Below are positions 4,346 to 28,771 of a stretch of 34,793 nucleotides of DNA, one piece after another. Within the stretch, counting starts at the first letter, position 1; every line of letters begins with the position of its first letter. A model generated the notes under the pieces. It had not been told where the DNA came from, ran no database searches, and was given only the letters and a program-made list of their open reading frames with translations. A program made the translations under genes and the position numbers. The stretch is from a virus, in IMG/VR virus record IMGVR_UViG_3300046516_001633, positions 1-34,793 of that record; one strand, given 5' to 3'.

Positions 4346-5026
4346 TCACGAGCGTGTCAGGTGAGCCGCAAGCTGATTAGTGAACAGGTTGGCTTTGCCA
4401 ATTTCGGCAAACATCAACTCCAATTCTTTTTTGACTTCCTCGACCGGCTCCTTGCAGAGCATCGACAGAGTGGAAGGCGCATCGCGGTACTGCGGGAATT
4501 TAACAATGTACTCGCGGATGACCTTCTTCCGGTTCTCGGTCGCCTCTTCCTCTGGAGAGGGACGCCGCACCTTTTTGGTGCTAGGCGTCTCCTCTCCATC
4601 TTTTGCCTCCGTAAGGAGGCAAGATGGAGATGGAGATGGATGCGCACGCTCACCGTCACGCACTGCGGGTCGGACTGCGTCACGCACTCCGTCACGCTGA
4701 GCGTTCACAGTCCGTGCGCCTTGAGCTCGTTTCTCGTAAAGGTCGTGAGACTTGGACCGATGCTCCTCCAGCTTGGAATTCTGCCGACTGGTCTCGACCA
4801 AGGGAAATTTAGACTCAATCTCGGGCCACGCGATGCTCCATTCTTCGTCACTGGCGCCGGCAATTGCCTGTAGTCGTTTGGGATCTGCAGGCAAACGACC
4901 GAGGTCCCATTGCGCATCGAGTAGTTCTCGGTAGACCGCACGGGCGATGAGCGGCCAGCCGCGGGTGGATGATGCAAAGTCACGTGGATACCACGGCATC
5001 ATCATGAGAGATTTCTTCTGTGACAA
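4346..5026 (-). CDS. DUF1376 (YdaU-type) replication-associated protein
   Basis: A 226-residue protein. Residues 8-75 carry the DUF1376 pattern: MPWYPRDFASSTRGWP, then ARAVYRELLDAQWDLGRLP and a WP-E-I-ESKFPL segment. The middle is a low-complexity RDGVRDAVRP stretch, and the C-terminal helices (about 160-226) end in LTRS. DUF1376 proteins are usually encoded next to phage replication initiators or helicase loaders; a role in replication initiation is inference. The start is TTG at 5026 with AGGGG upstream; an ATG at 5005 is an alternative. The 83 bases downstream, before the next gene, hold only frames of 10-12 codons. Confidence 0.75.
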   Translation of the reverse strand: MSQKKSLMMMPWYPRDFASSTRGWPLIARAVYRELLDAQWDLGRLPADPKRLQAIAGASDEEWSIAWPEIESKFPLVETSRQNSKLEEHRSKSHDLYEKRAQGARTVNAQRDGVRDAVRPAVRDGERAHPSPSPSCLLTEAKDGEETPSTKKVRRPSPEEEATENRKKVIREYIVKFPQYRDAPSTLSMLCKEPVEEVKKELELMFAEIGKANLFTNQLAAHLTRS

Positions 5027-11672: not shown

Positions 11673-11995
11673 CTCCATTAGAAATTGGAATCGCCCTGCA
11701 CTACTGGGTTTCGCCCAAGCCTTACAAGGACGGCAAGAACAGTTGGACTGAGCTTGAAGCGAAAATCATCACCAAGATGCACGACCGGCATCTTCTGGAG
11801 TACCAGAACGGCCAGTTGAGCGGTAACACGCCAGCTATGCGCGCCTTTGTGGAGGCCCTGGAGGCAGTCCCGTGGCCTTCTATGAAGTGGGTTGTTGAGC
11901 CGTGCCCGGTGGCGCCCGATCTGTACCGCGAGCAGGTAAATGCATTGGCCTTGGAATGCGCGCGTGCCAGCCGACCGAATGAGTTGCGTCGATGA
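11669..11995 (+). CDS. Conserved prophage-type hypothetical protein
   Basis: A 108-residue protein starting MTPLEIGIALHYWVSPKPY. The order of a first helix, a charged loop, LEYQNGQLSGNTPAMRAFVE and then VPWPSMKWV is typical of a small phage and prophage family that looks like a winged-helix fold. DNA binding is possible but unproven. The ATG overlaps the upstream TGA. Confidence 0.7.
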   Translation: MTPLEIGIALHYWVSPKPYKDGKNSWTELEAKIITKMHDRHLLEYQNGQLSGNTPAMRAFVEALEAVPWPSMKWVVEPCPVAPDLYREQVNALALECARASRPNELRR

Positions 11996-12087
11996 GTGAT
12001 CACACCCTCGATCTTCTGATCCTGGCCGCCGCCTTCGCTTGCCTGCGGGCGGCCGTCGCATTGGCGGAGAGGTGGCTTAGGGAGTGA
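11992..12087 (+). CDS. 31-residue hydrophobic peptide at operon end
   Basis: The ATG overlaps the upstream TGA (ATGA). It encodes MSDHTLDLLILAAAFACLRA and then AVALAERWLRE, one likely transmembrane helix. It is the last rightward gene and overlaps the convergent late operon by 11 bases tail to tail. No intrinsic terminator is visible at this convergence. Confidence 0.45.
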   Translation: MSDHTLDLLILAAAFACLRAAVALAERWLRE

Positions 12088-12685
12088 GTTCGATGTTGTC
12101 GACGAAGTAGAGATTCTTGCCAACGCCAGTGCCGTCTGCGATGGTGAATTTCTGGATCAGCGGGTTGGTCAATCCGAAGTCCGCGAGCGGAACCACGCAG
12201 TCCGTCCACTGACCTGCGACCAATGCGGGCGCGTACTTCGTGCCACTGCCTGTAGCTACGATAACCCCGCCTTGGGGACCATCTGGCACGTCATTGATGG
12301 CTGCGAATCCCGTGGCGATGATCTGATTCGGCAGTGTCGGCTTGACGCTGTATTTGAGATACTTGAACGGCGTGGTGTCGAACTTCTTCCCCTGCGCGAA
12401 GGGTTGAAATCCGCCGTTAGCCGCGGTGATCGTGACGGCGATGCAGGTCGCGCCTGGCTTGCCGGCCTTGTTCTGGTAATCAATGGAGGCATTCCACGAG
12501 TAGTCCGATTCCCAGTTGAACTGGCCGTTCTGGTAGATCACAAAAGCCCCCGCGGCGGGAGGTGTGATCACCGGTGGCGTCACAACCGGGGGAGTGACCA
12601 CGGGCGGGACAACAGGCGTCAGCAGCGTGGCGACCTGCTGTGCGATGGCGTGGAGCTCGGAGGCGGTCAGAGTAATGGTGGCCAT
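12077..12685 (-). CDS. Pro/Val/Thr-linker protein with carbohydrate-binding-like domain
   Basis: A 202-residue protein in three parts: a short N-terminal helix (TASELHAIAQQVATLLTP); residues 24-45, a P-P-V-V-T repeat linker; and residues 47-202, a beta-sandwich-like domain (FVIYQNGQFNWESDYSW, ending NLYFVDNIELTP). The last part resembles carbohydrate-binding or galactose-binding domains that end in a FxDNIxL strand. A stiff linker joined to a binding domain suggests a surface-exposed virion or secreted protein. It is the last gene of the late operon, after lysis. The glycan target is unknown. Confidence 0.6.
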   Translation of the reverse strand: MATITLTASELHAIAQQVATLLTPVVPPVVTPPVVTPPVITPPAAGAFVIYQNGQFNWESDYSWNASIDYQNKAGKPGATCIAVTITAANGGFQPFAQGKKFDTTPFKYLKYSVKPTLPNQIIATGFAAINDVPDGPQGGVIVATGSGTKYAPALVAGQWTDCVVPLADFGLTNPLIQKFTIADGTGVGKNLYFVDNIELTP

Positions 12686-14776: not shown

Positions 14777-16684
14777 TCAAGCACAGAAGTAGGTCGCGGT
14801 GATGCCGACGTTCACATTGGCGCCTACAGAGATCGCCGGCAGCAGCAGACTCGTGCCGTTGACCTGTCCTACCCCGATGACCGCATCGGTCGATCCATTG
14901 GCCACAATGACGTTGGCAGCGCCGATGGTCACTGCGATCGGCAGGCCGGTGATTGCGGTCCCGGCCGCGCATGAGAGGGACACGCTGTCGCTGATGATCA
15001 CAGTCACGGTGATCTGCTGACCGTGGTACTCGACCCGCTTGTTGCTGACCGTGAGCACGCCTCCGTGAGTCAGCGCGCCCGTTCCTGGCGTCCAAGTGTG
15101 AACACCCATGTCGACCCAATTGTCCCCATTGCGCGTGGTGACAGTGAGGTTGCCGGATGGCACCATCAACGTGTTGTTGATGCTGGTACCTACGAGCACG
15201 TTGTTCTCGGTCTCCTGAATCATCGAATTTTGCAGGGTTCCTACGAAATTGATGTTTCCCAGACTGTTGTCCGAAGAAGTACATCGGGTGAAGAACCCGT
15301 CGCAGACCACGCTCGTATTGGCAAAGATCTTGCTCGTCGACCCCGACAAGTCACATCCGTCGATTACCCATTCGGACAAGGTCTGGGCGGCATTGCCGAT
15401 GTAGAGGCCATAGGTTGATTGATGCGTCTGGGCTTCTGAGGAAACTCCCCGCAGACATACCGTGTTGGTAGGAGCAGTCGTCGTGTCAACGTAAATCAGT
15501 GATCGAATGGAGCTCGATGGCGGCGCTGAATCCAGGAAAGTGGCATCGATACTTACCTTGCTGCAGCCTTCGAAATACAGGATATCGGACGTCGCGCTGC
15601 CGCTAATATTCTGGCATTCGCCATCACGGATAGACAGAACCGTAGTGGATTGACCACTCGGTGCCACAGTCTGCAAGGTCGATGTTTGTGAAAACACGTT
15701 GTGACTGGTAAAGACGCAGGTTTTGCAACCTGCATCTGTTGCAACTTGAATGAACGTGCACGCAAACTGCAGGTAGTTTTCAGAGCCGAAGTTATAGACG
15801 ATGGCGATGCTGGCTTTGCCGTAAAAACGACAATCCTTCAAATGGATCGTCTGACTGCTCAGGTCCGTGCTGTTGCGCGCCAGGAACCAACAGGTTTTTG
15901 GATAGGTCGTGATGTCCGTACACACCACGACATTCTCGAAGATGAGGCCCACGGTCCCCGTGCAATCGAATACGTGGCCCGTGTGTTTGGCGATGATCGA
16001 TCCGGTGTTGGGCGGATTCATCGTGATCGCCAGGGGATTGCCTTCGTTGCGGATCGTGAATCCATTCGCGCTCGGCAACTGCCCTGGGCTCAAGGTGCAG
16101 TCGATGGGACCATCCAGCAGATAAGTTCCTGTGACACCGTAACGCACCAATCCACCAAAGGCGGCCGTTAGGCTTGCATACTTCGCAACCTTGACAGCGG
16201 CATTGAAGGCCGCGGTCATGGAGGTCGTGCCGGGAATCGAGTTGGTTCCGTACCGATCCACATACATCGGCGGATAGAAAAAATTGATTACGGTCACGCT
16301 CGCGGCCGTTTCCGCGGCCGTTTGCGGATACAACACCGTACCAATCAACACCTGAGTAATGAATCGAGTGAGCGTACGATTGGTTATTTCGCTCTCGACA
16401 TTGTCGACAGAACGGATCGGACTCGTCGGCGGGTCAGTGTCATTCGCAGGCGACAGCACGAACTTGTACAGCAATCCCGGATCGAGCCAGACGTTCGCTG
16501 CTCCGTTTGAATCCAGGATGATCGGGTTGTTGTTCTGTGTGACCTGTGTAGAGTCAGTCCAGGTCGGCTGTTTGGTCGAGGTGCCTGCGATGTAGGTAAA
16601 GAGTTTACCGCCCGCCAGGGGCGCTCCTGAGTTGTTCGGGTCGAGGAACTGCAGAAACATCGGCGGTGAGAGAGTGACGCTCAT
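14777..16684 (-). CDS. Tailspike / receptor-binding protein with shared N-terminal anchor
   Basis: A 635-residue protein. Residues 1-80 are a virion-anchor domain: FLDPNNSGAPLAGGKLFTYI, then PIILDSNGAANVWL and GLLYKFVL. The central part (about 150-480) is Asn/Thr/Ser-rich with repeated short strands, typical of a right-handed beta-helix spike. The C-terminal part is a trimerisation-like beta region. Such spikes bind or cleave surface polysaccharide; no catalytic residues can be assigned here. It is coupled by ATGA to the tail fibre gene upstream, which has the same anchor. Confidence 0.8.
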   Translation of the reverse strand: MSVTLSPPMFLQFLDPNNSGAPLAGGKLFTYIAGTSTKQPTWTDSTQVTQNNNPIILDSNGAANVWLDPGLLYKFVLSPANDTDPPTSPIRSVDNVESEITNRTLTRFITQVLIGTVLYPQTAAETAASVTVINFFYPPMYVDRYGTNSIPGTTSMTAAFNAAVKVAKYASLTAAFGGLVRYGVTGTYLLDGPIDCTLSPGQLPSANGFTIRNEGNPLAITMNPPNTGSIIAKHTGHVFDCTGTVGLIFENVVVCTDITTYPKTCWFLARNSTDLSSQTIHLKDCRFYGKASIAIVYNFGSENYLQFACTFIQVATDAGCKTCVFTSHNVFSQTSTLQTVAPSGQSTTVLSIRDGECQNISGSATSDILYFEGCSKVSIDATFLDSAPPSSSIRSLIYVDTTTAPTNTVCLRGVSSEAQTHQSTYGLYIGNAAQTLSEWVIDGCDLSGSTSKIFANTSVVCDGFFTRCTSSDNSLGNINFVGTLQNSMIQETENNVLVGTSINNTLMVPSGNLTVTTRNGDNWVDMGVHTWTPGTGALTHGGVLTVSNKRVEYHGQQITVTVIISDSVSLSCAAGTAITGLPIAVTIGAANVIVANGSTDAVIGVGQVNGTSLLLPAISVGANVNVGITATYFCA

Positions 16685-17754
16685 TTAGCCACCGACAATC
16701 GAATCCAGCTACCGGCCAGCATGTTGCATGCATTGCCACTAGAGGAATTTTGCGCCCAGGCAATCCCGAAGCTCCCCCCTTGGGCCTGACTGATCGCACC
16801 GCTGATGTACAGCGCGTCATTCCCTGAAGCAGCTGTCGTGATCGTAGCGGCGGTTATCTGTGCCGCTGGCGTCGTGGAAACAATCCATGCTGATTTCCCA
16901 GCAAAGGCCGCCCCATTCACCGTTCCTACAGCCAGATTTTGCGGATTGTTGACGAGCGATCCGCTTGGACTGTTTTGCAATGCAACCGAGATACCTCCCG
17001 CGCCGCTGCCCGTCCCATTGAACATCAGCAACGCTTCAAAAGCCCAACTGACCAGTGGTGCATTCGGGAAAGTGGTAAACACCAGATCCGGGTCCGTGGT
17101 CAATGTCGTTGTTGATGCACGCGCGGTGGTCGTGGTTTTGGCGATGTAGATGGCCGGCGCCCCACCGCGCAGCAGCAGGTACCGCCCTGCTCCCACAACA
17201 GCCGTCGGCTTGATGGCCGTCAAACCATCGTCGGTCGCATTACTGCTGGCATTCCAGTAGAACAAACCTCCGTATCCATCATTGACCCCCAGGAGCCCTT
17301 CAGAGCGGACAATGAGAGTCTGTCCGCCCGACAAAGGCGGGGAAACCCCTGCGCGCAGGTCCGTCAGAAGCCCGTAGGAACGCATGGCATTGGCTATCAG
17401 GTCGGCACCCGATCCGCCCGCAGGATTCGCATACGCGGTTTGTATGGTGGTCGGATCGTTGATGCCGGTGATCTGGTCAAACACCGGACCCAACTGGACA
17501 TTGTTCGCATCCGTGATGATGATCTTCAGTGCAATCCCTTGCGGTTGCCAGATCTGCACACCGACCAATCGCCCGTTGCTACCCAGGCTCAGTGGATTGG
17601 CATTCGGGGTAACGCCGGTCTGGTCTGTATAGGTAGCCGTGGGTGTTGTGGTGCCGGCCAAATACGTGTTGATCTTGCCGCCCGCGAGAACGATCCCGAT
17701 ATCCGTGAAATATTGGAATACTGCTGAGATCGGGCAGAGGAAAACGGTGGCCAT
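16681..17754 (-). CDS. Tail fibre protein with the same N-terminal anchor
   Basis: A 357-residue protein. Residues 1-85 repeat the anchor layout: VLAGGKINTYLAGTTTPTAT, Y-T-D-Q, NPLSLGSNGRLVG and ALKIIITD. The C-terminal half is beta-rich with many Ala/Thr/Ser residues and no clear enzymatic motif. It probably attaches to the virion or to the longer spike and contributes to adsorption. TGATG couples it to the ATP-grasp gene upstream. Confidence 0.75.
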   Translation of the reverse strand: MATVFLCPISAVFQYFTDIGIVLAGGKINTYLAGTTTPTATYTDQTGVTPNANPLSLGSNGRLVGVQIWQPQGIALKIIITDANNVQLGPVFDQITGINDPTTIQTAYANPAGGSGADLIANAMRSYGLLTDLRAGVSPPLSGGQTLIVRSEGLLGVNDGYGGLFYWNASSNATDDGLTAIKPTAVVGAGRYLLLRGGAPAIYIAKTTTTARASTTTLTTDPDLVFTTFPNAPLVSWAFEALLMFNGTGSGAGGISVALQNSPSGSLVNNPQNLAVGTVNGAAFAGKSAWIVSTTPAAQITAATITTAASGNDALYISGAISQAQGGSFGIAWAQNSSSGNACNMLAGSWIRLSVAK

Positions 17755-19073
17755 CAGTAAAAGAACTCCGTGGCGTATCCGAATTTCTTCAAGGTCGGAA
17801 TTTCTTCCTCCAACTTCTCCCCGATGTCATCGCGCACGATCAGGTCCGGAACGTGCAAGTCCTTCACCACATCATACGCACGCTTGCAGGCTTGTTTTAC
17901 AGTCTTGCCGACACCGGTCACGACCGCAAGATAATCTCCCGTGGATACCCAGGTCTTCTTCTCGACCAACTTGTCTCCGGCCATGTCGGGCATGGTGGAA
18001 ATCTTGACGGCCTGCGGGGCAATGAACTTGCGATTCGCGTTGCCAACACCATAGACCGGCACACCGTCCGTCTCAGCCTTGGTCATCTTCGAATACGGAT
18101 AGTCGGGCATCGAGAGCACGATCCCGCAGGCGTGGCGGGTGTCTACTTCGAGGGTATCCTTCCCCTCACAGGCGTCAAACATCCACTGCACCGGATCTCC
18201 CGTATGCGTGGCCCACATGATGTTGGCGGCGGGCCAGCCCAATCGACAGGTGAATTCCAACGGCCACGCCTGCCCTTCTTCATCCACGATGCAGTTGATA
18301 TCGACGTCTCCGAGATGGCCCAGCTTCACCAGTTCCTTTTCTAGCGGGGCGAGTACGTCTTTCCCGAGGGCGGAGTGATCGACATACTTCATGACCGTTC
18401 CGGCTTCCCCGCAGTTGGGGCCGTAGTTGCCGGAACAGAACTTCTTGTGTTCGAAGTTCTCGTTGTACTTACCGATAAACCCCTTTGCGCCCATCCAGCG
18501 GGAGACGCCAATCTCCACGCCGGGAATGAACTTCTGAAGCATCACCGGACCCTTGGGGTTCAACTTCAACTTCTGCCAGCGCTGCAGACGCGCGATCATG
18601 TCCGCGGGAGACTTCCCACAATATGACAGGCTCTTGTCGTCTTCGTCTCCCAGAGTCTTGAAGACATACCGTTCCTCGGTCTTGCGGACGTGAGCTTCCG
18701 CTTCCTGCAATGAGTTAAATTGCTTGTATTCGGGGACTTCGATGCCGACCTTCTTTAGCAGTTCCATCCCCTGGATTCGCTTGATTTCGAGGTCTGCGGA
18801 GGCCACCGAAGGACCAAACACCTTCACTCCTTTGGCCCTGAACATATCCAGTTTCTTCATGAAGTCGTGGTTGCCGGTGGGTAACACCAAGTCTGCCCAG
18901 CTCATGGACGACAGCCAGTTTGTGACCCGATCCACTCCCCTAAATCCCTCCCCGGTGGTAGGGTTGCACTCAGGTGAGAGCCACAGGCGCACCTGGTGGC
19001 CTGCCCGCTGGGCACGCACCGCGAATGCGAGGCCTTCGCCAACACTGTCCATGTTCAGAATTAGGACCTTCAA
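17754..19073 (-). CDS. ATP-grasp ligase, PurD (GAR synthetase)-like
   Basis: A 439-residue protein with a TTG start: KVLILNMDSVGEGLAFA (Rossmann-type pre-ATP-grasp), then VFGPSVASADLEIKRIQG (as PurD), KTLGDEDDK in the nucleotide-loop region, VMLQKFIPGVEIGVSRW, and DVDINCIVDEEGQAWPLEFT near the metal site. Glycinamide ribonucleotide synthetase joins an amine to glycine using ATP; relatives ligate other carboxylates and amines. No other purine genes are present and it lies between ejection and tail genes, so a virion or host-surface modification role is as plausible as nucleotide synthesis. That is inference; the ATP-grasp call is firm. Confidence 0.8.
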   Translation of the reverse strand: MKVLILNMDSVGEGLAFAVRAQRAGHQVRLWLSPECNPTTGEGFRGVDRVTNWLSSMSWADLVLPTGNHDFMKKLDMFRAKGVKVFGPSVASADLEIKRIQGMELLKKVGIEVPEYKQFNSLQEAEAHVRKTEERYVFKTLGDEDDKSLSYCGKSPADMIARLQRWQKLKLNPKGPVMLQKFIPGVEIGVSRWMGAKGFIGKYNENFEHKKFCSGNYGPNCGEAGTVMKYVDHSALGKDVLAPLEKELVKLGHLGDVDINCIVDEEGQAWPLEFTCRLGWPAANIMWATHTGDPVQWMFDACEGKDTLEVDTRHACGIVLSMPDYPYSKMTKAETDGVPVYGVGNANRKFIAPQAVKISTMPDMAGDKLVEKKTWVSTGDYLAVVTGVGKTVKQACKRAYDVVKDLHVPDLIVRDDIGEKLEEEIPTLKKFGYATEFFY

Positions 19074-19152
19074 ATGTTAGTCTTCTTGTGGATTCTGTCG
19101 GTTCTGCTCGCATACGGTGTAGGGGTCGCAGCGGCGAATGCAACACACGAGA

Positions 19153-21234
19153 TCAAGGTCGTTCATCCTGTTGATCTCCCAATGTGATCGTTCCAGCGCC
19201 ACCGACCTTACGAAGCGATTCGAGCGTATGCGAGCGAGTAGCGGCCCGCTTTTTCTGGGTCTTCGCCGTCTTCTCGGCAGCGCCTAAAGGCGTCTCCTGA
19301 GCTGCTCTGACGTTTCGACCTGCCTGACCCATCTCCCGGAGCTTAGCGACACCGCGGATGGCTCCTGTCGCCGTATCTCCCAGCACCGGGATCTTGCTCA
19401 GTCCCTTTTCCAGGAACGCGAGCACATTGGCAAATGTGGGGGAACCCTTGAACCCGGTAGGCGGCTCTGTTTTCACATCTCGAGTGGCTTCCATGATCTT
19501 CTTGATCTGTCGCACCGTACCCTTACCGAAAATCACTTCGAGTTTGTCTTCGCCAATAGATCGGATGGCCCGTTCCATGGAAGCAGGCGTTACGTTGGGA
19601 GATCCATCCTCGAACCGAGTGACAGACTTACTAGCTTCGTCTTTGATGTGTTGAATAGTCTGCGCCCGTATGTCCCGCCACGCCTTACGTCCGGCGATTC
19701 GGGTCGCACCTTCGGTTCCGGTTAACAGCGAACGCTGGACATTACGTAGATCCTCGATGGAACCGCCCAGCACAGTTTTGCGCCAGGTATCCTCCAATGC
19801 GACCGAACGATCGGTGCGCGACTTGTCAGTCACCAGACGCTCGACCGCGCCTTGCTCCTCGAACTGTGTCTTGTGCTCTTTGAATGCTTGCTGGGCCGCC
19901 TTCCATGCCTTGGCAGCGGCGGGAATCTGCTGCATCGATTGGTCGATTGCATCGACTACTCGGCCAGCGTAATAACCATCTGTGCCCCCGGCAGCCCGGA
20001 TGCCAGACGCTTTCTTGCGCAAGTCGTCGAGTTCAGCGAGCGAAATACCACGCCGAGTTGTGACCGTAGTGCCACCAGTCTTTTCAGTACTTTCAACCTT
20101 TGCCTTCTTCAGCCAGCTTTGCAGGAATCCCATGTGTTGAACTTCAGGATTATTATCGAGGAAGTCGTGTAATGGATCAGCTGAGACCTGAGCGGTTGGT
20201 TCGGTCGCACGCGCTTTCTTATACAGCGCATCGTAGTTGGCTTTGGAGGTCGCCGCCTTTGCACGCAGGGCAGTATCCTGCACGGACGCCCCGACTTGTT
20301 CAGGAGTCTCCGCTTCGCTACGAGTAGCTCCTTTACCGCGCACCTTGCCTTTGAGGACATCGAGGTTCTCAAGCAGAGCTTTGTTCTGCTCCTGGTAGAT
20401 CTCACGGATAGGTTTGCCAGCCTCAGTAGCTGAGACATTCCCTTCGTTGCGCAACTGAACCGGATCGCGGCTCAGTTGTCCGCGAGTGGCGGGGACTGGC
20501 TTAGGTAGCGAGGCCAGTCGGGCTTGACGCTCAACCGCACGAGGGTCGAGCTTGTCGAGATTCTTGGCGTCACCAGCAATCTCAGTGAGGGTCTTTTTCG
20601 CACCCTGAGCCAGTGAATCCCAATCCAAATTAGTATTGCGAGTGACATAGTCTCGCGCTGCCGCCTCTGGAGCCATCTTCACAGTCTGCGCAGCTTCGCC
20701 ACGTAGCCGACCAAGGCCTTTCCCCACGACAGCCGGGATCGCTTGAATTGCGGTGTTAACTGCCGCGCCAGCCGCAGGAGAGCCGGTTATGTCGGTAGTT
20801 TTTCGCCCCGCAACGTCGGCACCCTCAGCCAACTTTCGAAACGGATAGGAAATCGCTGATGTTGTCAGCTTGCCAGCGGTGGTCTTGGGCTGATATGTCA
20901 GCGCGCTTTGTACCCGTTCCACCACATCTGCAGCTGGCGTATCGGTGATGCCCAAAGCATGTGTAGCGCCCGCCGCCATGCCCGCCAAACCTGCTACCGG
21001 CGCAGCTATGGCGCCAGTCAGTATGTTACTGCCCGCTTCAGCACCGCCGATGAGTGGCGCCTTGTCGATGACGTTCTTCACGCCCTCAACGAGACGATTA
21101 GGCTTTTCCTTCGGGGTAAGCCACTCCTTCGGAACCTCACGTCCGCTGCTCTGGAGTTTCTGTGCGATCTGATCCTTGGTCGTCCCATCCGGTACGCCCT
21201 TCAAAATCGAGCCGTCCGGTAGTTGGACGTCCAT
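19153..21234 (-). CDS. Large ejection / internal virion protein
   Basis: A 693-residue protein starting MDVQLPDGSILKGVPDGTTK, a motif common at the N-terminus of phage internal virion proteins. Residues 60-95 are Gly/Ala-rich and hydrophobic (ILTGAIAAPVAGLAGMAAGA), as in membrane-inserting ejection proteins. The rest is long helices with conserved RRGISLAELDDLRKKASGIR. No lytic transglycosylase motif was found. It is the last and largest of three ejection-type genes in tandem. Confidence 0.7.
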   Translation of the reverse strand: MDVQLPDGSILKGVPDGTTKDQIAQKLQSSGREVPKEWLTPKEKPNRLVEGVKNVIDKAPLIGGAEAGSNILTGAIAAPVAGLAGMAAGATHALGITDTPAADVVERVQSALTYQPKTTAGKLTTSAISYPFRKLAEGADVAGRKTTDITGSPAAGAAVNTAIQAIPAVVGKGLGRLRGEAAQTVKMAPEAAARDYVTRNTNLDWDSLAQGAKKTLTEIAGDAKNLDKLDPRAVERQARLASLPKPVPATRGQLSRDPVQLRNEGNVSATEAGKPIREIYQEQNKALLENLDVLKGKVRGKGATRSEAETPEQVGASVQDTALRAKAATSKANYDALYKKARATEPTAQVSADPLHDFLDNNPEVQHMGFLQSWLKKAKVESTEKTGGTTVTTRRGISLAELDDLRKKASGIRAAGGTDGYYAGRVVDAIDQSMQQIPAAAKAWKAAQQAFKEHKTQFEEQGAVERLVTDKSRTDRSVALEDTWRKTVLGGSIEDLRNVQRSLLTGTEGATRIAGRKAWRDIRAQTIQHIKDEASKSVTRFEDGSPNVTPASMERAIRSIGEDKLEVIFGKGTVRQIKKIMEATRDVKTEPPTGFKGSPTFANVLAFLEKGLSKIPVLGDTATGAIRGVAKLREMGQAGRNVRAAQETPLGAAEKTAKTQKKRAATRSHTLESLRKVGGAGTITLGDQQDERP

Positions 21235-22647
21235 TTACTTCAAGTCATCCCAGTGCACCACCTCTCCCGACTTGGCACCAGGGACTGGGGCACTCGCTGG
21301 GGCTATAGGTTGTGGATCTCGGCCCGTAATACTCTCCCCGAGTCCTTGTCGGACTTCTCTCGGGGAGGCTTTGGCCGCGGCGATTTCCTTCTTCATGATG
21401 TCGGTCACGGCCTTGAAGCTGACCTGATCGGTGTAGATGGGTAGGCTGGCAATGGACTCTTCGCGATCCGCGACTCCAGACGCGCCGGGTACCACCGCAC
21501 GGGTGTACACGTTTGCAAGTGAACGGGCGGCCTGCGCGAAGGCATACAGATTCGGATCCGAATCGCCCTTCTCGGCGATCTGGAACAGCTTGTTCCACGG
21601 CACCATCTTGCCTCGGGGGACCTTCTCGGAGGCTTCCAAGGCAATCGGAATGAGCTTGTCAGCTTCGTTTGCAGCCGTATCGATCTGCGCCTGACGGGTA
21701 CCTAAAGCACGTTCACCGGCCTTGATACCGAAGAACTCGGCGTTCTTGGCCGCCACATCTCCGCCCTTCAAGCCGCGGATCTCGGCCACATCGGCCATGC
21801 GATTCCTGACGGAGGCTTTGTCCGCCTTGGACAGACCCACCAGAGCACCGGTATCCCCCGTCAGGGCCTGGTCGGCGAGCTCGTCGCGCGCCTTGTCCGT
21901 GAGTCCACCGGAGGAATCACGTTCGGCTTTCGCCTTGGTGAGGCCTGTTTTGGTGGTGGCGTTCGCCTCCATCGCACGGTCGTGCCGCTCTCGCTCGGTC
22001 TCTTGCGCTTCGCCCACCTGCTGGTGACGTTCTGCCAGGCGCTGCTTCAGCAGTTCCTGGCCTTTGTTGGACTGCATCTCAAGAGCTTTGATGCGATCGT
22101 AGGTGAGGGGACCTGCGGCCAGGGCCTTGTCGAGGGATGCATTCCATACCGGCTGCCCGTTGGGGAGCGTCTGCTTGGACAACTGCTCCTTTGCGCCCAG
22201 CACGGATTTAGTAATGGTCGCGTTCACCATGGCATCGGACGCACCCGACTTTCTCAGCTGGTCTGCTTCGGCCAGCACACTGTCCAAAGCCCCTGCGATG
22301 TGATCCTGTTGCACCACATAGATCTTCAGGTCCTGGTCCTGTTTCTCGTACTGTGCGGACTGGCGCTGCGCGAAATTCCTCTGCAGGTCCATGCCCAGCT
22401 TCGGATTGATGCGCGTCGCCGCTTCCGCCGCTTTGTTCTGGCCCTCGAAGGTGCTGATATCGGCTTTGTTCAACACAGCCTTGATCTTGCCCAAGTCCTC
22501 CTGCTCGGACTTCGCCTGATTCAGCTTCATCCGACCCAGTTGCTGATCATCGATCAGGGATGCGAGCGTATACGCATCCCCTTTGGCCTTGATCGGATTG
22601 CCGGCGCCATCAGGAATTGAGGAGATGACAGAAGGATCGAATGCCAT
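21235..22647 (-). CDS. Internal virion / DNA ejection protein
   Basis: A 470-residue, mostly helical protein, rich in Gln, Lys, Ala and Glu, with a long coiled-coil region (about 60-250). A segment near residues 345-420 (KMVPWNKLFQIAEKGDSDPN, then ARSLANVYTRAV) recurs in podovirus internal virion proteins. It directly abuts the larger ejection-type gene. It likely travels with DNA into the host to help form the trans-envelope channel. Confidence 0.7.
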   Translation of the reverse strand: MAFDPSVISSIPDGAGNPIKAKGDAYTLASLIDDQQLGRMKLNQAKSEQEDLGKIKAVLNKADISTFEGQNKAAEAATRINPKLGMDLQRNFAQRQSAQYEKQDQDLKIYVVQQDHIAGALDSVLAEADQLRKSGASDAMVNATITKSVLGAKEQLSKQTLPNGQPVWNASLDKALAAGPLTYDRIKALEMQSNKGQELLKQRLAERHQQVGEAQETERERHDRAMEANATTKTGLTKAKAERDSSGGLTDKARDELADQALTGDTGALVGLSKADKASVRNRMADVAEIRGLKGGDVAAKNAEFFGIKAGERALGTRQAQIDTAANEADKLIPIALEASEKVPRGKMVPWNKLFQIAEKGDSDPNLYAFAQAARSLANVYTRAVVPGASGVADREESIASLPIYTDQVSFKAVTDIMKKEIAAAKASPREVRQGLGESITGRDPQPIAPASAPVPGAKSGEVVHWDDLK

Positions 22648-22650
22648 GAC

Positions 22651-23388
22651 CTACCCCGTAATCGACGTAATGGGCTGATTGATAAAGGGGTCGTTGTTGA
22701 TCGTGTTATTGGCTTGACTGGAAATCCACCCTGTATCCACGCCTCCGCTGGGATTGTTCAATCCCGCGAGCGTGTTGGCAGTGATCAAGCCATTAGCCGT
22801 ATTCCCCGCACTCTTGGTGATACCCGCAATGGTGTTGGCGTCGATTCCGGCCAGGGTGTTTCCTTGGTTCACCAACGCATTGCCGACATTCGCGCCGGTC
22901 TGTAAAACACCCGCTCCGGTCCCTGCGGCCGCATTTTGACCGATGGTCACTGCATTCTGGGCGTTACCGACCGCTTGCTGGTAGGTCGTGTCCGCAAGGC
23001 CTGAATTGAACTTCGACAGCCCCTCCAGGGTGTTACCAGACAGCCCCAATCCCATGGCGCTGGCCTGATTCACGGTATTCTGGGTGCCCTGCTGTTGCTG
23101 GAATTGATACCCGGGCGTAGCCGCCAGGGTCTGCTCGATCCCAGCGGAGCCTTTCGGCCCCAATCCCAGCAGATCCTGGTATTGATCAATAGCTCCGCCG
23201 CTGCCGGTCGCCCCCGTACCGATAGCGGCATAAGGGGCATTTAAGGCCTGCTGCTTGGCTTGAGCAGAATTCTGGGCATTGATCGATGCATTGGTCGAAT
23301 CGCGGGTGGCACTGGCGGCCGAACTACCTGCCACACTGGAGCCGACTGCGCCAATGACACCAGCTCCGATGACCGCGGCGGCGACCAT
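22651..23388 (-). CDS. DNA transfer protein (p32-like)
   Basis: A 245-residue Gly/Ala/Asn/Gln-rich protein. The N-terminal hydrophobic Gly/Ala helix (MVAAAVIGAGVIGAVGSSVA) is followed by PGYQFQQQQGTQNTVNQASA and Gly/Asn-rich repeats. This composition is typical of p32-type DNA transfer proteins, small ejection proteins of podoviruses. ATG 23388 shares an A with the upstream TGA (TGATG) and has GGGAG before it, so it is preferred over the GTG at 23403. It ends in TAG. Confidence 0.75.
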   Translation of the reverse strand: MVAAAVIGAGVIGAVGSSVAGSSAASATRDSTNASINAQNSAQAKQQALNAPYAAIGTGATGSGGAIDQYQDLLGLGPKGSAGIEQTLAATPGYQFQQQQGTQNTVNQASAMGLGLSGNTLEGLSKFNSGLADTTYQQAVGNAQNAVTIGQNAAAGTGAGVLQTGANVGNALVNQGNTLAGIDANTIAGITKSAGNTANGLITANTLAGLNNPSGGVDTGWISSQANNTINNDPFINQPITSITG

Positions 23389-23840
23389 CAGACTCCCATC
23401 CACAACGAGTAGTACCGCTCAACCTCGGTGTAACCGAGCTTACTGAACAGCCAGGAAGCGTCTGCGTGCAATTTCGACCCGACGAACATGCGCTGAACTC
23501 CCCGCCGTTTGGCTTCTACTTCCACTGCCCGAAAGAGTTTCAGTCCCTGCCGCCCCCGGCACTCCGGCTTCACATAGAAGATGTCCATCGTCAAGGTCAG
23601 GCAGCCTCGATAGTGTAACCCCGGCGCCACGAAACCCACGAAATATCCCACCAGGATCCCGGAAGATCGACCCACAATCAGGAGAATCTCTCCCCGGCGA
23701 TCACGCTCGAGATAGATCTCGTACTGCGGGTCCAGAGGGACCTCATCCTTGTTGAGTGCCAGTTCTTGCCAGTGCGCGGGGAACAGCGCCTTGGCCTCTT
23801 CCAGGAAGGGCGCAAAAGGCTCGACACCCCAGGTGATCAC
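23388..23840 (-). CDS. GNAT-family acetyltransferase in the structural operon
   Basis: A 150-residue protein. The GNAT core is visible: strand GEILLIVGRSSGILVGYFVG, then MDIFYVKPECRGRQGLKLF (motif A, acetyl-CoA pyrophosphate loop CRGRQG) and SWLFSKLGYTEVERYYS. GNAT enzymes transfer acetyl from acetyl-CoA to amines. Sandwiched between hydroxylase and ejection genes with overlaps on both sides, it is made late and could modify a virion or host protein; the substrate is unknown. Confidence 0.8.
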   Translation of the reverse strand: MITWGVEPFAPFLEEAKALFPAHWQELALNKDEVPLDPQYEIYLERDRRGEILLIVGRSSGILVGYFVGFVAPGLHYRGCLTLTMDIFYVKPECRGRQGLKLFRAVEVEAKRRGVQRMFVGSKLHADASWLFSKLGYTEVERYYSLWMGV

Positions 23841-24424
23841 AGCGGGCTCGTGGGCAATTCACCCCGGAAGCCCAGGTGCTGGCAGCGGATGTCGATCACG
23901 AGATGGATCCGATCCTCGGCACTGTTGTTGAGCACCTCGTGCTCAATGAGGTTCTGGAACCAAAACACCTCTCCAGTCTGCATGTGCACCTGCTCATCGC
24001 CGACCCTGAATACGACCCCGGGAGCGGACTGCACCACGTAGTGGAAACGATCCCAGTACTCAGCATGAATCGGGGTATCGGCATGGGCAAAGATGCGTCC
24101 TCCGGGACGGATCTTGTTGAGCATCACCCGCCCCAGCCGTTCACCCTCCACCGTCCCCATCAAGGAGAAGATCAGGGGCCGAGCCGCGGGTAGATGAAGC
24201 GCACCGTCCATCCAAATGCATTCATGCGGATCCTTGGCGCTGCGTTCGAGTTCGGTGACGGACGACGGCGGGAAGCGCAGGAAGATTGTCTCAACGTCCT
24301 CGAACGGCCCCTGTGGGTAGTCGCGCAGGTACGTGTCAGCTTTCCACAGATCCCTCTGGCGGGCGATCTGCATCCGCAAGCCCGTCATATTGATCCCACT
24401 GGCTAACCGGTGCAGGTACCTCAT
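23837..24424 (-). CDS. Aspartyl/asparaginyl beta-hydroxylase-like dioxygenase
   Basis: A 195-residue double-stranded beta-helix enzyme. H114-A-D116 in IFAHADTPIH and H162 in EHEVLNNS are likely iron ligands, and R172 in DRIHLVID may bind 2-oxoglutarate. GEVFWFQNLIEH is typical of the Asp/Asn hydroxylase and proline-hydroxylase-like fold. These enzymes hydroxylate protein side chains using O2 and 2-oxoglutarate. It is coupled by ATGA on both sides within virion genes, suggesting hydroxylation of a structural or host surface protein, which is inference. Confidence 0.8.
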   Translation of the reverse strand: MRYLHRLASGINMTGLRMQIARQRDLWKADTYLRDYPQGPFEDVETIFLRFPPSSVTELERSAKDPHECIWMDGALHLPAARPLIFSLMGTVEGERLGRVMLNKIRPGGRIFAHADTPIHAEYWDRFHYVVQSAPGVVFRVGDEQVHMQTGEVFWFQNLIEHEVLNNSAEDRIHLVIDIRCQHLGFRGELPTSPL

Positions 24425-24693
24425 ACCGCCGCTCCGGCCCCGTTGTGCCAGATGATGCTAGGCGATACCTGATGCACCCACACCGGGTAACCGAGGGTCG
24501 TGTCATAAAAGACTTGCCCTACATACAACTGTTTGGTCGGGCGCTTCGCAGTCGGACCCGAAGTCCCCACTGGCGACAGCCAGTATTGCAATGACTGCAG
24601 CCAGGATTGGTATAACGGAGTGAGATAGCCGGCACGCTCTCCTTGGATCTCCACGATGTGCGGATCCGTCGGAATGGGTGATAAGCCACTCAT
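24421..24693 (-). CDS. Small virion-type protein
   Basis: A 90-residue protein starting MSGLSPIPTDPHIVEIQGER, with LYQSWLQSLQYWLSP and TKQLYVGQVFYDTTLGYPVW. The last segment resembles short beta motifs of phage tail or neck proteins (VGQVFYDTTLGYPVW followed by a W). It overlaps the gp10-like gene upstream and the hydroxylase gene downstream. Confidence 0.65.
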   Translation of the reverse strand: MSGLSPIPTDPHIVEIQGERAGYLTPLYQSWLQSLQYWLSPVGTSGPTAKRPTKQLYVGQVFYDTTLGYPVWVHQVSPSIIWHNGAGAAV

Positions 24694-26135
24694 TGTTTGG
24701 GACGCTCCCTAACCCTCATCGCCCCTTCGGTGATCACAAACTTGACCGGGTCACTCTGCGTAATCCGAAAGGTCGCATCCCGGGTCGAGCCGAACCGCCG
24801 CCACAGCACCCGCGTGAGGTATTGCCCCACCAGGCCCGAGGAGGCCCAGCGCTGCGCCGACCACGTACGTCCGTTGTCCTTGCTGTACTCCAGCATGATC
24901 TGTGGATTACTGCCCTGACCGCTTTGCAAACCCACCCCGGTTTCCATGTCCAGGTACAACAGACTGATGCGGATGCGGTTGAAATTCGACAGGATGTGCC
25001 GGGTGATCAACTGGCGAATGATGGTCGCCCCGTTATCCGTATAGGCGTTCGGGTCCAGGCGGTACACGAGGTTAGTCGCGTAGTCAGCCACCAAGGTTTG
25101 ACCGGCATAGTAGGTGCCGATGTTGCCGGTGTGCCGGGAGGGAATGACCGAGGGGCCGGTCTGTACTTCGCTCATGATTCCCGTCGATCCGTCGTAAATC
25201 CACGACCGATTGGTAGACGGAAAGTTGATCTGATACATCCGATGGGTGTCGACCTGATAGGTATACGCGGTCGCATCCGAGCTCACCGCGAAGCTGTTCC
25301 AGATCGATTCGGTGTCCGGATCGGAAATCACCTTCGGGGAAAATCCCACCACTTGCACCAACTGCTTGGTGCCCGCACGGGTTTCGCCCAGGAACACAAT
25401 TGAATCCTGATCATTCGCCGCCGTCATGTGACAGCGCGAGAAAATGGCTCCCAGACCCCACGGATTGGCGGCCGAGAGCACCGGCGCAAAGGGCTGCGGA
25501 GTCAGTCCTTGGTTCTGCCAGAACTCCATGCCCTGTTCCATGAAGATGATCAGGTTACCGTTCAGGTTGTCGACCGCGAGGATGTTGTCCGAGTCGGATG
25601 CCGCGGCGGCGAAGGCCAACGCGTTCCACGTGGAACCATCAAAGGCATTGCTCACCCAGAAATTCTGGGTTCCGGGCTGCTCTGCCACAAAGAATCCGGC
25701 AACGAATGTAGAGGTTTTGGCTCCTATCGCAGGGAAGCTGCTCACCAGAGCAAAGACCCCCGTCGCGCGGGTGAACAGATACGCCGTTGACCCATCCACA
25801 ATGAGGACTTGAGTGCTGCTGTAAGCGATGGACACCGGACCTGCGCTGGTGTTCAGCGTGCCCGTGAACAAGGGATTGCCCAGTGAATCTACCGACTGGA
25901 ACTGGTTATAGGCCACCAGGTACAGCGAGCTTTCCGTCCCCTGAAAGGCTCGCAGCGGCAGTCCCAACGAGGTCTGCGTGGTGAACTGGGCAATGAGTCC
26001 CGGCGTCCCATAAATGGCTACTTTGGTCTTGTCCCCGTCCCGACGATCTTCAAAGTAGACATTCAGCCGGCGCTGGCGGGTGACCGCAAAACTCTTAGAT
26101 CCGGTGCTCGCTCCAAAAAGGGCGGCGACCTTCAC
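24690..26135 (-). CDS. Packaged-DNA stabilisation protein (P22 gp10-like)
   Basis: A 481-residue, beta-propeller-like protein: Q-R-R-L-N-V-Y-F near the start, VAIYGTPGLIAQF, then repeated blades (LYLVAYNQFQSVDSLGNPLF, VSIAYSSTQVLIVDGSTAYL, IIFMEQGMEFWQNQGL, DSIVFLGE). This is the P22 gp10 layout, which plugs the portal channel after packaging and binds the tail needle. GTG 26135 overlaps the upstream TGA (GTGA) and is chosen over a longer frame that has no homology. Confidence 0.8.
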   Translation of the reverse strand: MKVAALFGASTGSKSFAVTRQRRLNVYFEDRRDGDKTKVAIYGTPGLIAQFTTQTSLGLPLRAFQGTESSLYLVAYNQFQSVDSLGNPLFTGTLNTSAGPVSIAYSSTQVLIVDGSTAYLFTRATGVFALVSSFPAIGAKTSTFVAGFFVAEQPGTQNFWVSNAFDGSTWNALAFAAAASDSDNILAVDNLNGNLIIFMEQGMEFWQNQGLTPQPFAPVLSAANPWGLGAIFSRCHMTAANDQDSIVFLGETRAGTKQLVQVVGFSPKVISDPDTESIWNSFAVSSDATAYTYQVDTHRMYQINFPSTNRSWIYDGSTGIMSEVQTGPSVIPSRHTGNIGTYYAGQTLVADYATNLVYRLDPNAYTDNGATIIRQLITRHILSNFNRIRISLLYLDMETGVGLQSGQGSNPQIMLEYSKDNGRTWSAQRWASSGLVGQYLTRVLWRRFGSTRDATFRITQSDPVKFVITEGAMRVRERPKQ

Positions 26136-27151
26136 GCTTGGTCCGCATCCGCCATGAAGAAGAAACTCGTGGTCTCCGGGTCCGCTTCCCGTGCCATGGC
26201 CATGGCCTCGCGATAGTTCAGGTCCATGTCTTTCGTCCAATCAGCATCGAACATGCCGCAGATCTCCCGCGACAGTCCCCAGCACAGGGGGCGATACCAC
26301 TGCTGTGGATACTCCGGATTGTCTCCCGGGTTCACGAAATCCATGATCGGGCGCAAGTACACGATGTGGATGTGCTTGGTCACATCCTGGGCGGCCCCGC
26401 AATCGGTGTATAGCTGACCCGGACCGTTCACGTTCGTGACGTTGGCGAACTGGCTTTCATAGTAGATCGCCGTGGGATCGGCCGGTGAACTCGTGCTCGC
26501 CTTGGTGGGCAAGATTTCATAGTCCTGCAAGGTCATGACATTCAGCGGCGTGTCGATGTTCGTCGTGTCGCGCAGCACCGCGGTCAGAATCTGCACCGGC
26601 CGTTGAGCCTGGGTGGTGTAGTTGAAGAGGTACGAGTTCGCCGCCGCGGCCGAGGGCAGGCCGGGAGCGGGAATCACGAACGTGCCTGCACCGGCATTGA
26701 TGGAGGTGATCGTGGCCTGGTACAGAGCGCCGGAGTTCAACTGGATCAGCACAATGTCCGCTGCCGTGTAATTGCCTGTGCTTCCCACACCGACGTTGAT
26801 AGTGGTTGCCCCCGCAATGGCATTGGCGATGGTCTGATCAGTACCGAAATTCTGCCCCGGTAAGGCTGCAACCCCACCAGCCCAGGCCGTGCCCCCGGGC
26901 CCAATTGCATACTGCCCAGTGGTCGAGGACAGGAACAGATCGCCTCGTTGCCGGCTCCACATCTTCAGTCCCGGAGCGAAGTCGAGCGACCCCATCCACT
27001 GCTTGACCAACATGTTGAGCTTGCGTGCGCAGTCGGTCACTTCCTGAGCCGTGGGGACTTCAGATTCACCAATGGCGCCGATGTTCAGCATGGACTCGCG
27101 GATGATGTCATCGCGTACGACCGTGAAGCTGAAACTGTTGGAGAGGGCCAT
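26132..27151 (-). CDS. Tail accessory / head-tail adaptor (P22 gp4-like)
   Basis: A 339-residue protein. N-terminal helices carry the gp4-type pattern VRDDIIRESMLNIGAIGESE, then AQEVTDCARKLNMLVKQWM. An inserted beta-rich region (about 90-200) follows, then a C-terminal helical part (SREICGMFDADWTKDMDLNY). P22 gp4 forms the ring below the portal. The extended middle is longer than in P22. Gene order portal-capsid-gp4-gp10 supports the call. Confidence 0.75.
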   Translation of the reverse strand: MALSNSFSFTVVRDDIIRESMLNIGAIGESEVPTAQEVTDCARKLNMLVKQWMGSLDFAPGLKMWSRQRGDLFLSSTTGQYAIGPGGTAWAGGVAALPGQNFGTDQTIANAIAGATTINVGVGSTGNYTAADIVLIQLNSGALYQATITSINAGAGTFVIPAPGLPSAAAANSYLFNYTTQAQRPVQILTAVLRDTTNIDTPLNVMTLQDYEILPTKASTSSPADPTAIYYESQFANVTNVNGPGQLYTDCGAAQDVTKHIHIVYLRPIMDFVNPGDNPEYPQQWYRPLCWGLSREICGMFDADWTKDMDLNYREAMAMAREADPETTSFFFMADADQA

Positions 27152-28771
27152 TTATCGCACCAAGGCCAGTTTCGGCCGCTCTTCTTTCGCCCAGGTGATA
27201 CAGTGCCAGAGCACCTTGAAGGTCTCCTCGGCACTGATGTCTTCCTGACATTGTGCAATCGCAGAATCGACTTTACCCTGATACTCCACTTGGGTTGCGG
27301 TGCCCTTTTTGCAGCGACTCCAATCATAGTGGAGTTGGTGACAGGCCGGAACCTCGTTGTTTCCTCTGCCGGGACAGACTGTATTCTTGGAGGCCAACAC
27401 GTGCGTGTTGGTCCAATCGCGGGTCAGGTTTTCGTGGGTGGAATGGCTCAAAAACACCACTTTCGGCATCGGTAGTTGAGCGGCCGCATTCAGCACGCCG
27501 GTTTCAGGCCCAATCACCAGGTCACAAGCTTCTACAAACGAGAGTGTTTGCCGGATGTTCCAGGCACCGGAGCGTCTGTGAATACGCGGCTCCTTCTCCC
27601 AGCCCTGTTCCAGAATCTTAGCGGCCTCTCCTCCGACCAACACGACATGAATGTCTGTAAATTCCAGCATGAGCGCGGCGAGCACGTTGTCCATCCACGG
27701 ATAAACCTTGTGGATGGAGGAGCCTGCAAGAGCCCACACGATACAGAAGGAGCCCATTTTCTGGCGCTCCGTGCGTGCCCACGTCTGCTCATCCGGTGTC
27801 GAGTAGAACCGCATGTTGAGTTCGTAGGGAACTCCCGCGAGTAGGTGCTGGTACTCGACATAGTTGCGATTCATCATCGAATGCCGAGCGACCGGGTTGG
27901 CGTTATCCAGCGGTCGCCCCGGCATGGCGAGCAAGGTGCCTTCGACCGACTCGCACAAGTTTACCCACTTGTCGTACTTCTTCTTCTGCCAGTCCCAGAA
28001 CTGCCCGAGGGCGGCATTGGGTACCTGATCTTTGTCCTGTAGGTAGAAATCATCGATGTTCGGGTCGTGCAGAATCACATCGTTGCCCGGGGGGCTCGTA
28101 TACAAGGTGATGTGCCAGACTTCTTTCTTGAGAGCAGCCAACACCGAGGAGACTTGCAGCAGGTCCCCGAATGCTCCGTATCTCACCACACCACAGGTCT
28201 TCGCGGGTTTGGGCTGCTTCCACGAATGCGTCTGGCCCTTGTGCTTCTTTTGGAACACGAAAAAGAGCGAATACTCATCGCCTTCGTTGCGCTTCTGGAA
28301 GTCGACCAAGTCCCACGGACCAGCCTTCTCCATGTAGGCAATGAGTCGGTCGCGATTCACGTTCCATTTGTGATCCGGGTTCGCACCGGCTTCTCCACAC
28401 TTAGGATACTCATCCTCATCCGGCAGATACAACACGAGGTAGCCGCCGATCTTGATCAGCCGCAGCCATTCCTTCAATGTTTTGACGACCCGTTCAGGAG
28501 CGATGTGCTCGAGCAGGTGGGAAGAGAACACGAAGTCCATGCTCTCAGAGCTAAAGACAGACAGATCCTCAGCGGTGTCCACTCGGATGTCCGGCTTGAT
28601 GTACTGCCCGAAAAGCCGTGCGTCCGTGAGATTGTCGACACGGATGAAATGCGCATAGGTCTGTTTGGGGCCGCAGCCCAAATCCAGCCCGCGCCCGCGC
28701 GTCCACTTCGGCAGCTCCCAGGCGATCTTGCCGGCTTCGTCCCCCTGGGGCCCGTCGATGCGCCAGGTCAC
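27152..28771 (-). CDS. Fused SAM methyltransferase and GT9-type glycosyltransferase
   Basis: A 539-residue two-domain protein. Residues 25-175 form a class I methyltransferase: motif I LDLGCGP (29-35), VDTAEDL, MDFVFSSHLLEHI (78-90) and GGYLVLYLPDED. Residues 193-530 form a GT9 (heptosyltransferase-like) enzyme: VVRYGAFGDLLQVSSVL (195-211), IVWALAGSSIHKVYPW and CDLVIGPETGVLNAAAQLP (416-434), a donor-binding signature. Fusion in one chain suggests a sugar is transferred and methylated, or its target is. It lies between virion genes and is GTGA-coupled downstream of none but adjacent to gp4-like. Targets could be capsid, tail or host LPS; this is inference. Confidence 0.85.
   Translation of the reverse strand: MTWRIDGPQGDEAGKIAWELPKWTRGRGLDLGCGPKQTYAHFIRVDNLTDARLFGQYIKPDIRVDTAEDLSVFSSESMDFVFSSHLLEHIAPERVVKTLKEWLRLIKIGGYLVLYLPDEDEYPKCGEAGANPDHKWNVNRDRLIAYMEKAGPWDLVDFQKRNEGDEYSLFFVFQKKHKGQTHSWKQPKPAKTCGVVRYGAFGDLLQVSSVLAALKKEVWHITLYTSPPGNDVILHDPNIDDFYLQDKDQVPNAALGQFWDWQKKKYDKWVNLCESVEGTLLAMPGRPLDNANPVARHSMMNRNYVEYQHLLAGVPYELNMRFYSTPDEQTWARTERQKMGSFCIVWALAGSSIHKVYPWMDNVLAALMLEFTDIHVVLVGGEAAKILEQGWEKEPRIHRRSGAWNIRQTLSFVEACDLVIGPETGVLNAAAQLPMPKVVFLSHSTHENLTRDWTNTHVLASKNTVCPGRGNNEVPACHQLHYDWSRCKKGTATQVEYQGKVDSAIAQCQEDISAEETFKVLWHCITWAKEERPKLALVR

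Follow-up and report, generated by a model that had tools for sequence, protein, structure and literature searches.

The window, by which we mean the whole stretch of DNA analysed here, is the linear IMG/VR virus record IMGVR_UViG_3300046516_001633 of 34,793 bases, whose right two thirds are taken up by a virion operon on the minus strand. A preliminary description had placed four modification or ligase enzymes among the structural genes of this operon. All four were located there on the minus strand, a family could be assigned to each of them, and their key residues are conserved in relatives. Comparison with related viral records revealed that the four genes are three separately inherited modules (A, B and C) at fixed positions:

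27152..28771, minus strand: methyltransferase-GT9 glycosyltransferase fusion (MT-GT9), 539 amino acids (aa), module C; from Pfam, PDB profile and AlphaFold2 (AF2)/Foldseek
23837..24424, minus strand: 2-oxoglutarate (2OG)/Fe(II) dioxygenase, Asp/Asn beta-hydroxylase-like, 195 aa, module A; PF05118
23388..23840, minus strand: GNAT acyltransferase-like protein, 150 aa, module A; PF00583
17754..19073, minus strand: PurD-like ATP-grasp carboxylate-amine ligase, 439 aa, TTG start, module B; from profile and domain matches

Scans with each enzyme and with the head closure protein Hc3 led to about 110 viral loci, and a presence matrix was drawn up from whole-record searches of 45 related records. These records were gathered with the same enzyme queries, so that the frequencies are biased; the separability of the genes is clear. 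MT-GT9 was found in 16 records, the dioxygenase in 23, GNAT in 22 with strong and in another 4 with weak matches, and the ATP-grasp protein in 13. The dioxygenase and GNAT occurred without the other two enzymes in 14 of the 45 records, MT-GT9 without ATP-grasp in four and ATP-grasp without MT-GT9 in one; all four were present together in six. No record had scattered genes, and every module kept its own fixed address. The preliminary description had raised the possibility of one coherent pathway, and had anticipated that relatives might instead carry the genes scattered or independently. Independent carriage was indeed found, whereas scattering was not, since the addresses are kept. The idea that one virion protein is modified by all four enzymes in succession draws on their joint presence in the window and in six relatives; the separable modules of the matrix speak against it, and we ruled it out on these grounds as a very improbable reading.

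The gene series of the operon begins with portal, scaffold, an N4-gp56-type capsid protein, small head proteins and MT-GT9. It continues with a neck adaptor, Hc3, a 90-aa structural protein, the dioxygenase, GNAT and a gp7-like ejection protein, and ends with two further ejection proteins, the ATP-grasp protein, a fibre and a spike. This virion gene order is that of P22 (1-8-5-4-10-26-14-7-20-16-9). The genes adjoining the enzymes are:

26132..27151, minus strand: neck/adaptor-like protein, 339 aa; phrog_12985, positioned as P22 gene 4
24690..26135, minus strand: head closure protein Hc3, counterpart of P22 gp10; phrog_578, E 2.6e-79
24421..24693, minus strand: 90-aa virion structural protein; phrog_20787, E 1.2e-5
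22651..23388, minus strand: P22 gp7-like DNA ejection protein; phrog_598, E 3e-17, with P22 gp7 in the same family
21235..22647, minus strand: second ejection protein, from synteny; position of P22 gp20
19153..21234, minus strand: third ejection protein, from synteny; position of P22 gp16
16681..17754, minus strand: tail fibre-type protein, 357 aa; phrog_26190, start overlapping the ATP-grasp stop

Start context pointed to a GTG at 26135 as the likely start of Hc3, whose listed open reading frame (ORF) runs to 26240, and to an ATG at 23388 as that of the gp7-like gene (ORF listed to 23403). A family search gave no match for the second and third ejection proteins. The fibre (357 aa) and the spike (635 aa), at 14777-17754 of the window, have a common N-terminal phrog_26190 domain, presumably for virion attachment.

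Most junctions are coupled by start/stop overlaps, as the preliminary description had it: GTGA, ATGA, ATGA and GTGA around MT-GT9, the 90-aa gene, the dioxygenase and GNAT amount to translational coupling, and the ATP-grasp/fibre junction reads TGATG. The sole uncoupled junction lies between the third ejection gene and the ATP-grasp gene, with a gap of about 80 nucleotides. In composition, GC content and GC content at third codon positions (GC3) the four enzyme genes are the same as their structural neighbours. From this operon layout we infer that the enzymes are co-expressed late with the structural genes. Chance is excluded because of the conservation and the fixed gene order in relatives. 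The early region contains a primosomal-protein-like gene (4346-5026, minus strand), and most other early ORFs tested were without a family match. DNA base hypermodification was set aside as a role: no such gene was recognised in the scanned part of the early region, and the enzymes lie in the virion operon. A close relative has a tyrosine-integrase-like gene (L010:17066-18208, minus strand), suggesting that some members are temperate.

The dioxygenase of module A belongs to the Asp/Asn beta-hydroxylase family PF05118, with a score above the cut-off (55.9 against 22.6 bits; E 6e-15) and the conserved His/His/Arg; H114, D116 (HxD), the distal H162 and the 2OG-binding R172 are invariant in 27 sequences. 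Its profile found the solved structures of AspH (5apa) and proline 4-hydroxylase (4p7w). GNAT matched PF00583 with 24.3 bits (cut-off 20.7; E 4e-5), and its family profile found acetyltransferase structures. R95 is invariant, and the following G-x-x-L/M-F of acetyl-CoA motif A is mostly kept in relatives; profile score and motif mark the protein as a member of the GNAT superfamily. The two genes are a nearly obligate pair: in a separate scan with the dioxygenase profile, GNAT was the next gene in 75 of the 77 loci with room for it, and an HNH-type insertion was found in the remaining two. Pseudomonas phage PfAn1 is one of the phages with the dioxygenase and GNAT. HNH homing-endonuclease-like ORFs were seen between the dioxygenase and GNAT or right after the dioxygenase at L282:3737-4198 and L252:6589-7104.

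The pair is located in a slot directly before the P22-gp7-like ejection gene. In loci without dioxygenase or GNAT, the space from Hc3 to the gp7-like gene holds cupins, a cupin fused to or adjoining a SET domain, or other GNAT-like proteins. At least one dioxygenase, GNAT-like, cupin or SET gene was present in 75 of 75 loci, or 60 of 60 after removal of duplicates. The SET domains (PF00856) were confirmed with E values from 2e-5 to 2e-9, and the cupin group is often annotated as short tail fibre protein. Cupin-like/SET lysine-methyltransferase fusions stand in the slot at L012:4428-5291, L013:4395-5249 and L059:6683-7561. The same slot is occupied in P22 by gene 14 (L116:8911-9366), which is annotated as head morphogenesis and belongs to Pfam DUF2824. 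An AlphaFold model of gp14 (predicted local distance difference test (pLDDT) 66, predicted template modelling score (pTM) 0.65) was compared with the PDB, and the best 50 matches were all GNAT acetyltransferases (top E 3e-5, template modelling (TM) score about 0.5), which places gp14 in the GNAT fold on predicted structure. T7 gene 13 lies in the same position and carries the Pfam name probable scaffold protein; gp13 is a positional lead only, with a motif-like stretch (P 0.03). The always-filled slot and the GNAT-fold model of P22 gp14 were absent from the preliminary description and are the most surprising element of the analysis. Most likely, the window GNAT occupies a long-lived assembly position rather than a random site for cargo genes.

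Alternatively, the GNAT-like, cupin and dioxygenase proteins of the slot could serve the ejection proteins as assembly factors or chaperones, in the manner of P22 gp14, with catalysis secondary or lost. This would explain why the slot is never empty, and it agrees with the head morphogenesis annotation of P22 gene 14, whose model has a GNAT fold, with the scaffold name of T7 gene 13 and with the tail fibre label of the cupins. However, the residues that bind metal and 2OG in the dioxygenase do not vary, and the SET domains and the motif residues of GNAT have been retained, although a pure scaffold would need none of them; we consider this explanation rather unlikely.

The address of module B, after the third ejection gene and before the fibre, holds in the window's clade. 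The ATP-grasp protein matched Pfam GARS_C (7e-8) and GARS_A (3e-5), both slightly under the cut-offs, and its family profile found only PurD structures (2yw2, E 7e-34, profile positions 75-424). Homology over the ATP-grasp and C domains makes it a PurD-like member of the ATP-grasp superfamily. It falls outside the PurD equivalog, with 84.6 bits for NCBIfam TIGR00877 against a cut-off of 288, and the PurD metal-site motif EFNxRxGDPE appears as E-x-T-x-R-x-G-W-P in its family. An ordinary PurD that boosts purine synthesis is scarcely credible: PurD is the closest solved family, yet apart from the low score and the altered motif the profile match begins only at residue 75, and two genomes with the phage-type gene have another match at a different place that is weaker (24% and 22% identity). 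A purine-metabolism gene was ruled out by score and context.

Diverged copies of the ATP-grasp gene (38-53% identity at the protein level) have the same address on prophage contigs from Nevskia, Rhodanobacteraceae, Glaciimonas and other groups, where in most cases the genes just upstream code for ejection proteins. On one of them (L239) the slot again contains GNAT and a dioxygenase-like ORF, read by eye and with no Pfam match. Archaeal homologues were detected in 39 of 371 genomes sampled, and at 9 of 30 loci one of the next two genes downstream is a SET, GNAT or Acetyltransf_6 gene. By analogy, an ATP-grasp ligase with lysine methyltransferases and acyltransferases as its neighbours points to protein modification, a role that part of PMC4431377 argues for another ATP-grasp clade. 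In DPANN archaea, PurD-like ATP-grasp genes adjoin SET or GNAT genes at L324, L325, L341, L342, L347 and L348. An HNH ORF lies upstream of ATP-grasp at L006:9540-10004, and L114 (MW202796.1), a phage that shares this order of GNAT and ATP-grasp, has genes annotated as ubiquitin and chaperonin 10 kd (11988-12233 and 1618-1953).

Module C lies between the capsid-side genes and the neck adaptor in relatives with both flanks readable. Its methyltransferase half matched Methyltransf_11 (E 1e-8). GT9 (PF01075) was matched in 12 of 25 relatives (best 4e-5), the window protein itself scoring under the Pfam threshold. In an AlphaFold model (pLDDT 89) the first half resembles S-adenosylmethionine methyltransferases, and Foldseek matched the second half to GT9 3tov (E 1e-12) and WaaF 1psw (6e-12), and also to WaaC and the protein heptosyltransferase TibC. 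The GT-B fold and the PF01075 matches in relatives place the protein in the GT9 family. Invariant in the 25 relatives are D203 (putative catalytic Asp), K355, E423, C466, C477, C487 and C508. The two domains are split in L010 and arranged as GT9-MT-GT9 in L040, and a TylF sugar O-methyltransferase adjoins MT-GT9 at L027:11509-12090 and L029:9459-10001 (E 4e-13 and 1e-19); these variants and neighbours support a glycan function. MT-GT9 was without a match in an annotated phage collection, though it is repeatedly present in IMG/VR. Hosts of the relatives are mostly Gram-negative, and therefore ADP-heptose should be available.

The GT9 relatives WaaC and WaaF build the lipopolysaccharide (LPS) core, PF05118-type enzymes include lipid hydroxylases (with a weak OlsC match), and in the literature on related phages such GNATs and hydroxylases are treated as auxiliary metabolic genes. 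The host might thus be the target instead, with LPS core or other glycans of the envelope modified by the GT9-methyltransferase and the remaining enzymes serving as auxiliary metabolic or takeover genes. We regard this as improbable, since the addresses inside the virion operon are fixed over large divergence, late-operon timing fits the virion better than early host takeover, and transport or sugar-nucleotide genes were not found nearby. The fixed position also argues against the label of auxiliary metabolic gene.

The explanation we favour, with middling confidence, is that a P22-like short-tailed phage has three separately inherited modules, and that their retention in the virion operon most likely reflects action on virion proteins while the particle is assembled. 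In module A, a structural protein encoded nearby would be hydroxylated by the dioxygenase and acylated by GNAT; the likeliest target is an ejection protein, either the gp7-like one or another. Other phages would reach an equivalent end by filling the slot with a GNAT-like gene, with a cupin or with a cupin-SET lysine methyltransferase. The ATP-grasp protein of module B may use ATP to attach an amino acid or a peptide through an amide bond to an ejection or tail-fibre protein. The GT9 half of module C would transfer a sugar, plausibly host-made ADP-heptose, onto a protein of the capsid or neck, and the glycan would be methylated by the methyltransferase half. The substrates, products and biochemical steps named here are all proposals. 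The enzyme assignments, the late-operon location and a modification-type function of virion-linked enzymes, as put forward in the preliminary description, are supported.

More tentatively, and with less than even expectation, one may propose an obligate ejection-protein modification slot in short-tailed phages, which must hold a hydroxylase with an acyltransferase, an acyltransferase, a cupin oxygenase or a SET lysine methyltransferase. P22 gene 14 would be a diverged GNAT example, and the PurD-like amide ligase a second, optional tagging enzyme beyond the ejection genes.

Several observations weigh against modification by these enzymes. The slot survey was post hoc, with representatives picked from the slots themselves, and 9 of its loci rest on the weakly assigned folds GNAT-3 and GNAT-4. 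P22 gp14 has no clean acetyl-CoA motif and a model pLDDT of only 66, so that slot proteins with a GNAT fold may lack catalysis. Sequence profiles fail to join the window GNAT to gp14 or T7 gp13: profile-profile comparison of its family with P22 gp14, T7 gp13 and the GNAT-3 slot family produced nothing usable, and with an hhalign probability below 1% against DUF2824/phrog_651 it is not an orthologue of gp14. Only the slot protein of L020 bridges to the gp14 family (phrog_651 1e-3, phrog_4470 6e-5). When proteins including Hc3, the ejection proteins and the 90-aa protein were searched for residues that go with slot type, only phylogeny-like differences emerged, and no ejection-protein residue clearly tracks the slot type. 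For module C, the similarity to TibC is no closer than that to LPS heptosyltransferases.

Ejection proteins are already folded when packed into the head, have to travel through the narrow tail and then assemble again in the host envelope. These events could be governed by covalent modification, and we know of no study on covalent modification of ejection proteins. The slot result recasts genes usually annotated as auxiliary metabolic or hypothetical as testable virion-maturation enzymes, and it offers a predicted fold for a textbook gene, P22 gene 14, from a Pfam family of unknown function. The GT9-methyltransferase leads one to expect glycosylated virions among phages that infect Gram-negative bacteria.

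Among known systems, P22 gene 14 (DUF2824) and T7 gene 13 share the slot between the head closure/tail genes and the first ejection gene, and P22 gp14 resembles the window GNAT in its GNAT-fold model and its length of about 150 aa. However, gp14 shows no significant sequence similarity to the window GNAT, its motif A is degenerate, and it is without a dioxygenase partner. With AspH (PF05118) the phage dioxygenase has in common the fold family, two His and the 2OG-binding Arg; it differs in its 195 aa and in keeping an extra Asp (HxD). PurD (glycinamide ribonucleotide synthetase) is homologous to the window ATP-grasp protein in the A, B and C domains, and the ATP-binding lysines and catalytic Glu/Arg are kept, whereas the score under the cut-off, the changed metal and substrate motifs, the N-domain that is not recognised and the virion-operon location set it apart. 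For predicted R2K-clade ATP-grasp protein-peptide ligases, phages included, association with GNAT is read as protein modification in part of PMC4431377; the window protein is of the PurD-like clade with another gene order, and the slot is not described in that part of the paper. TibC and the other bacterial autotransporter heptosyltransferases (BAHT) share the GT-B heptosyltransferase-like fold with MT-GT9. The iron finger of TibC has four cysteines, Cys339, 342, 358 and 370 (PMC4358343), which the four invariant Cys near the C-terminus of MT-GT9 recall in their spacing (C-x2-C-x9-C-x10-C in short phage forms); four-Cys clusters may also exist in further GT9 enzymes. The BAHT/TibC family is defined by an N-terminal beta-barrel, a beta-hairpin thumb and the iron finger. 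We do not count MT-GT9 as a member, since it has a methyltransferase domain in front instead of the beta-barrel, and WaaF and GT9 3tov score better. In the mycobacteriophages Che8, Corndog and Myrna, phage-encoded glycosyltransferases modify capsid and tail proteins (PMC12363180). Their glycosyltransferases and hosts are other ones, and the predicted window GT9 is fused to a methyltransferase inside the virion operon; a phage-encoded glycosyltransferase is common to both.

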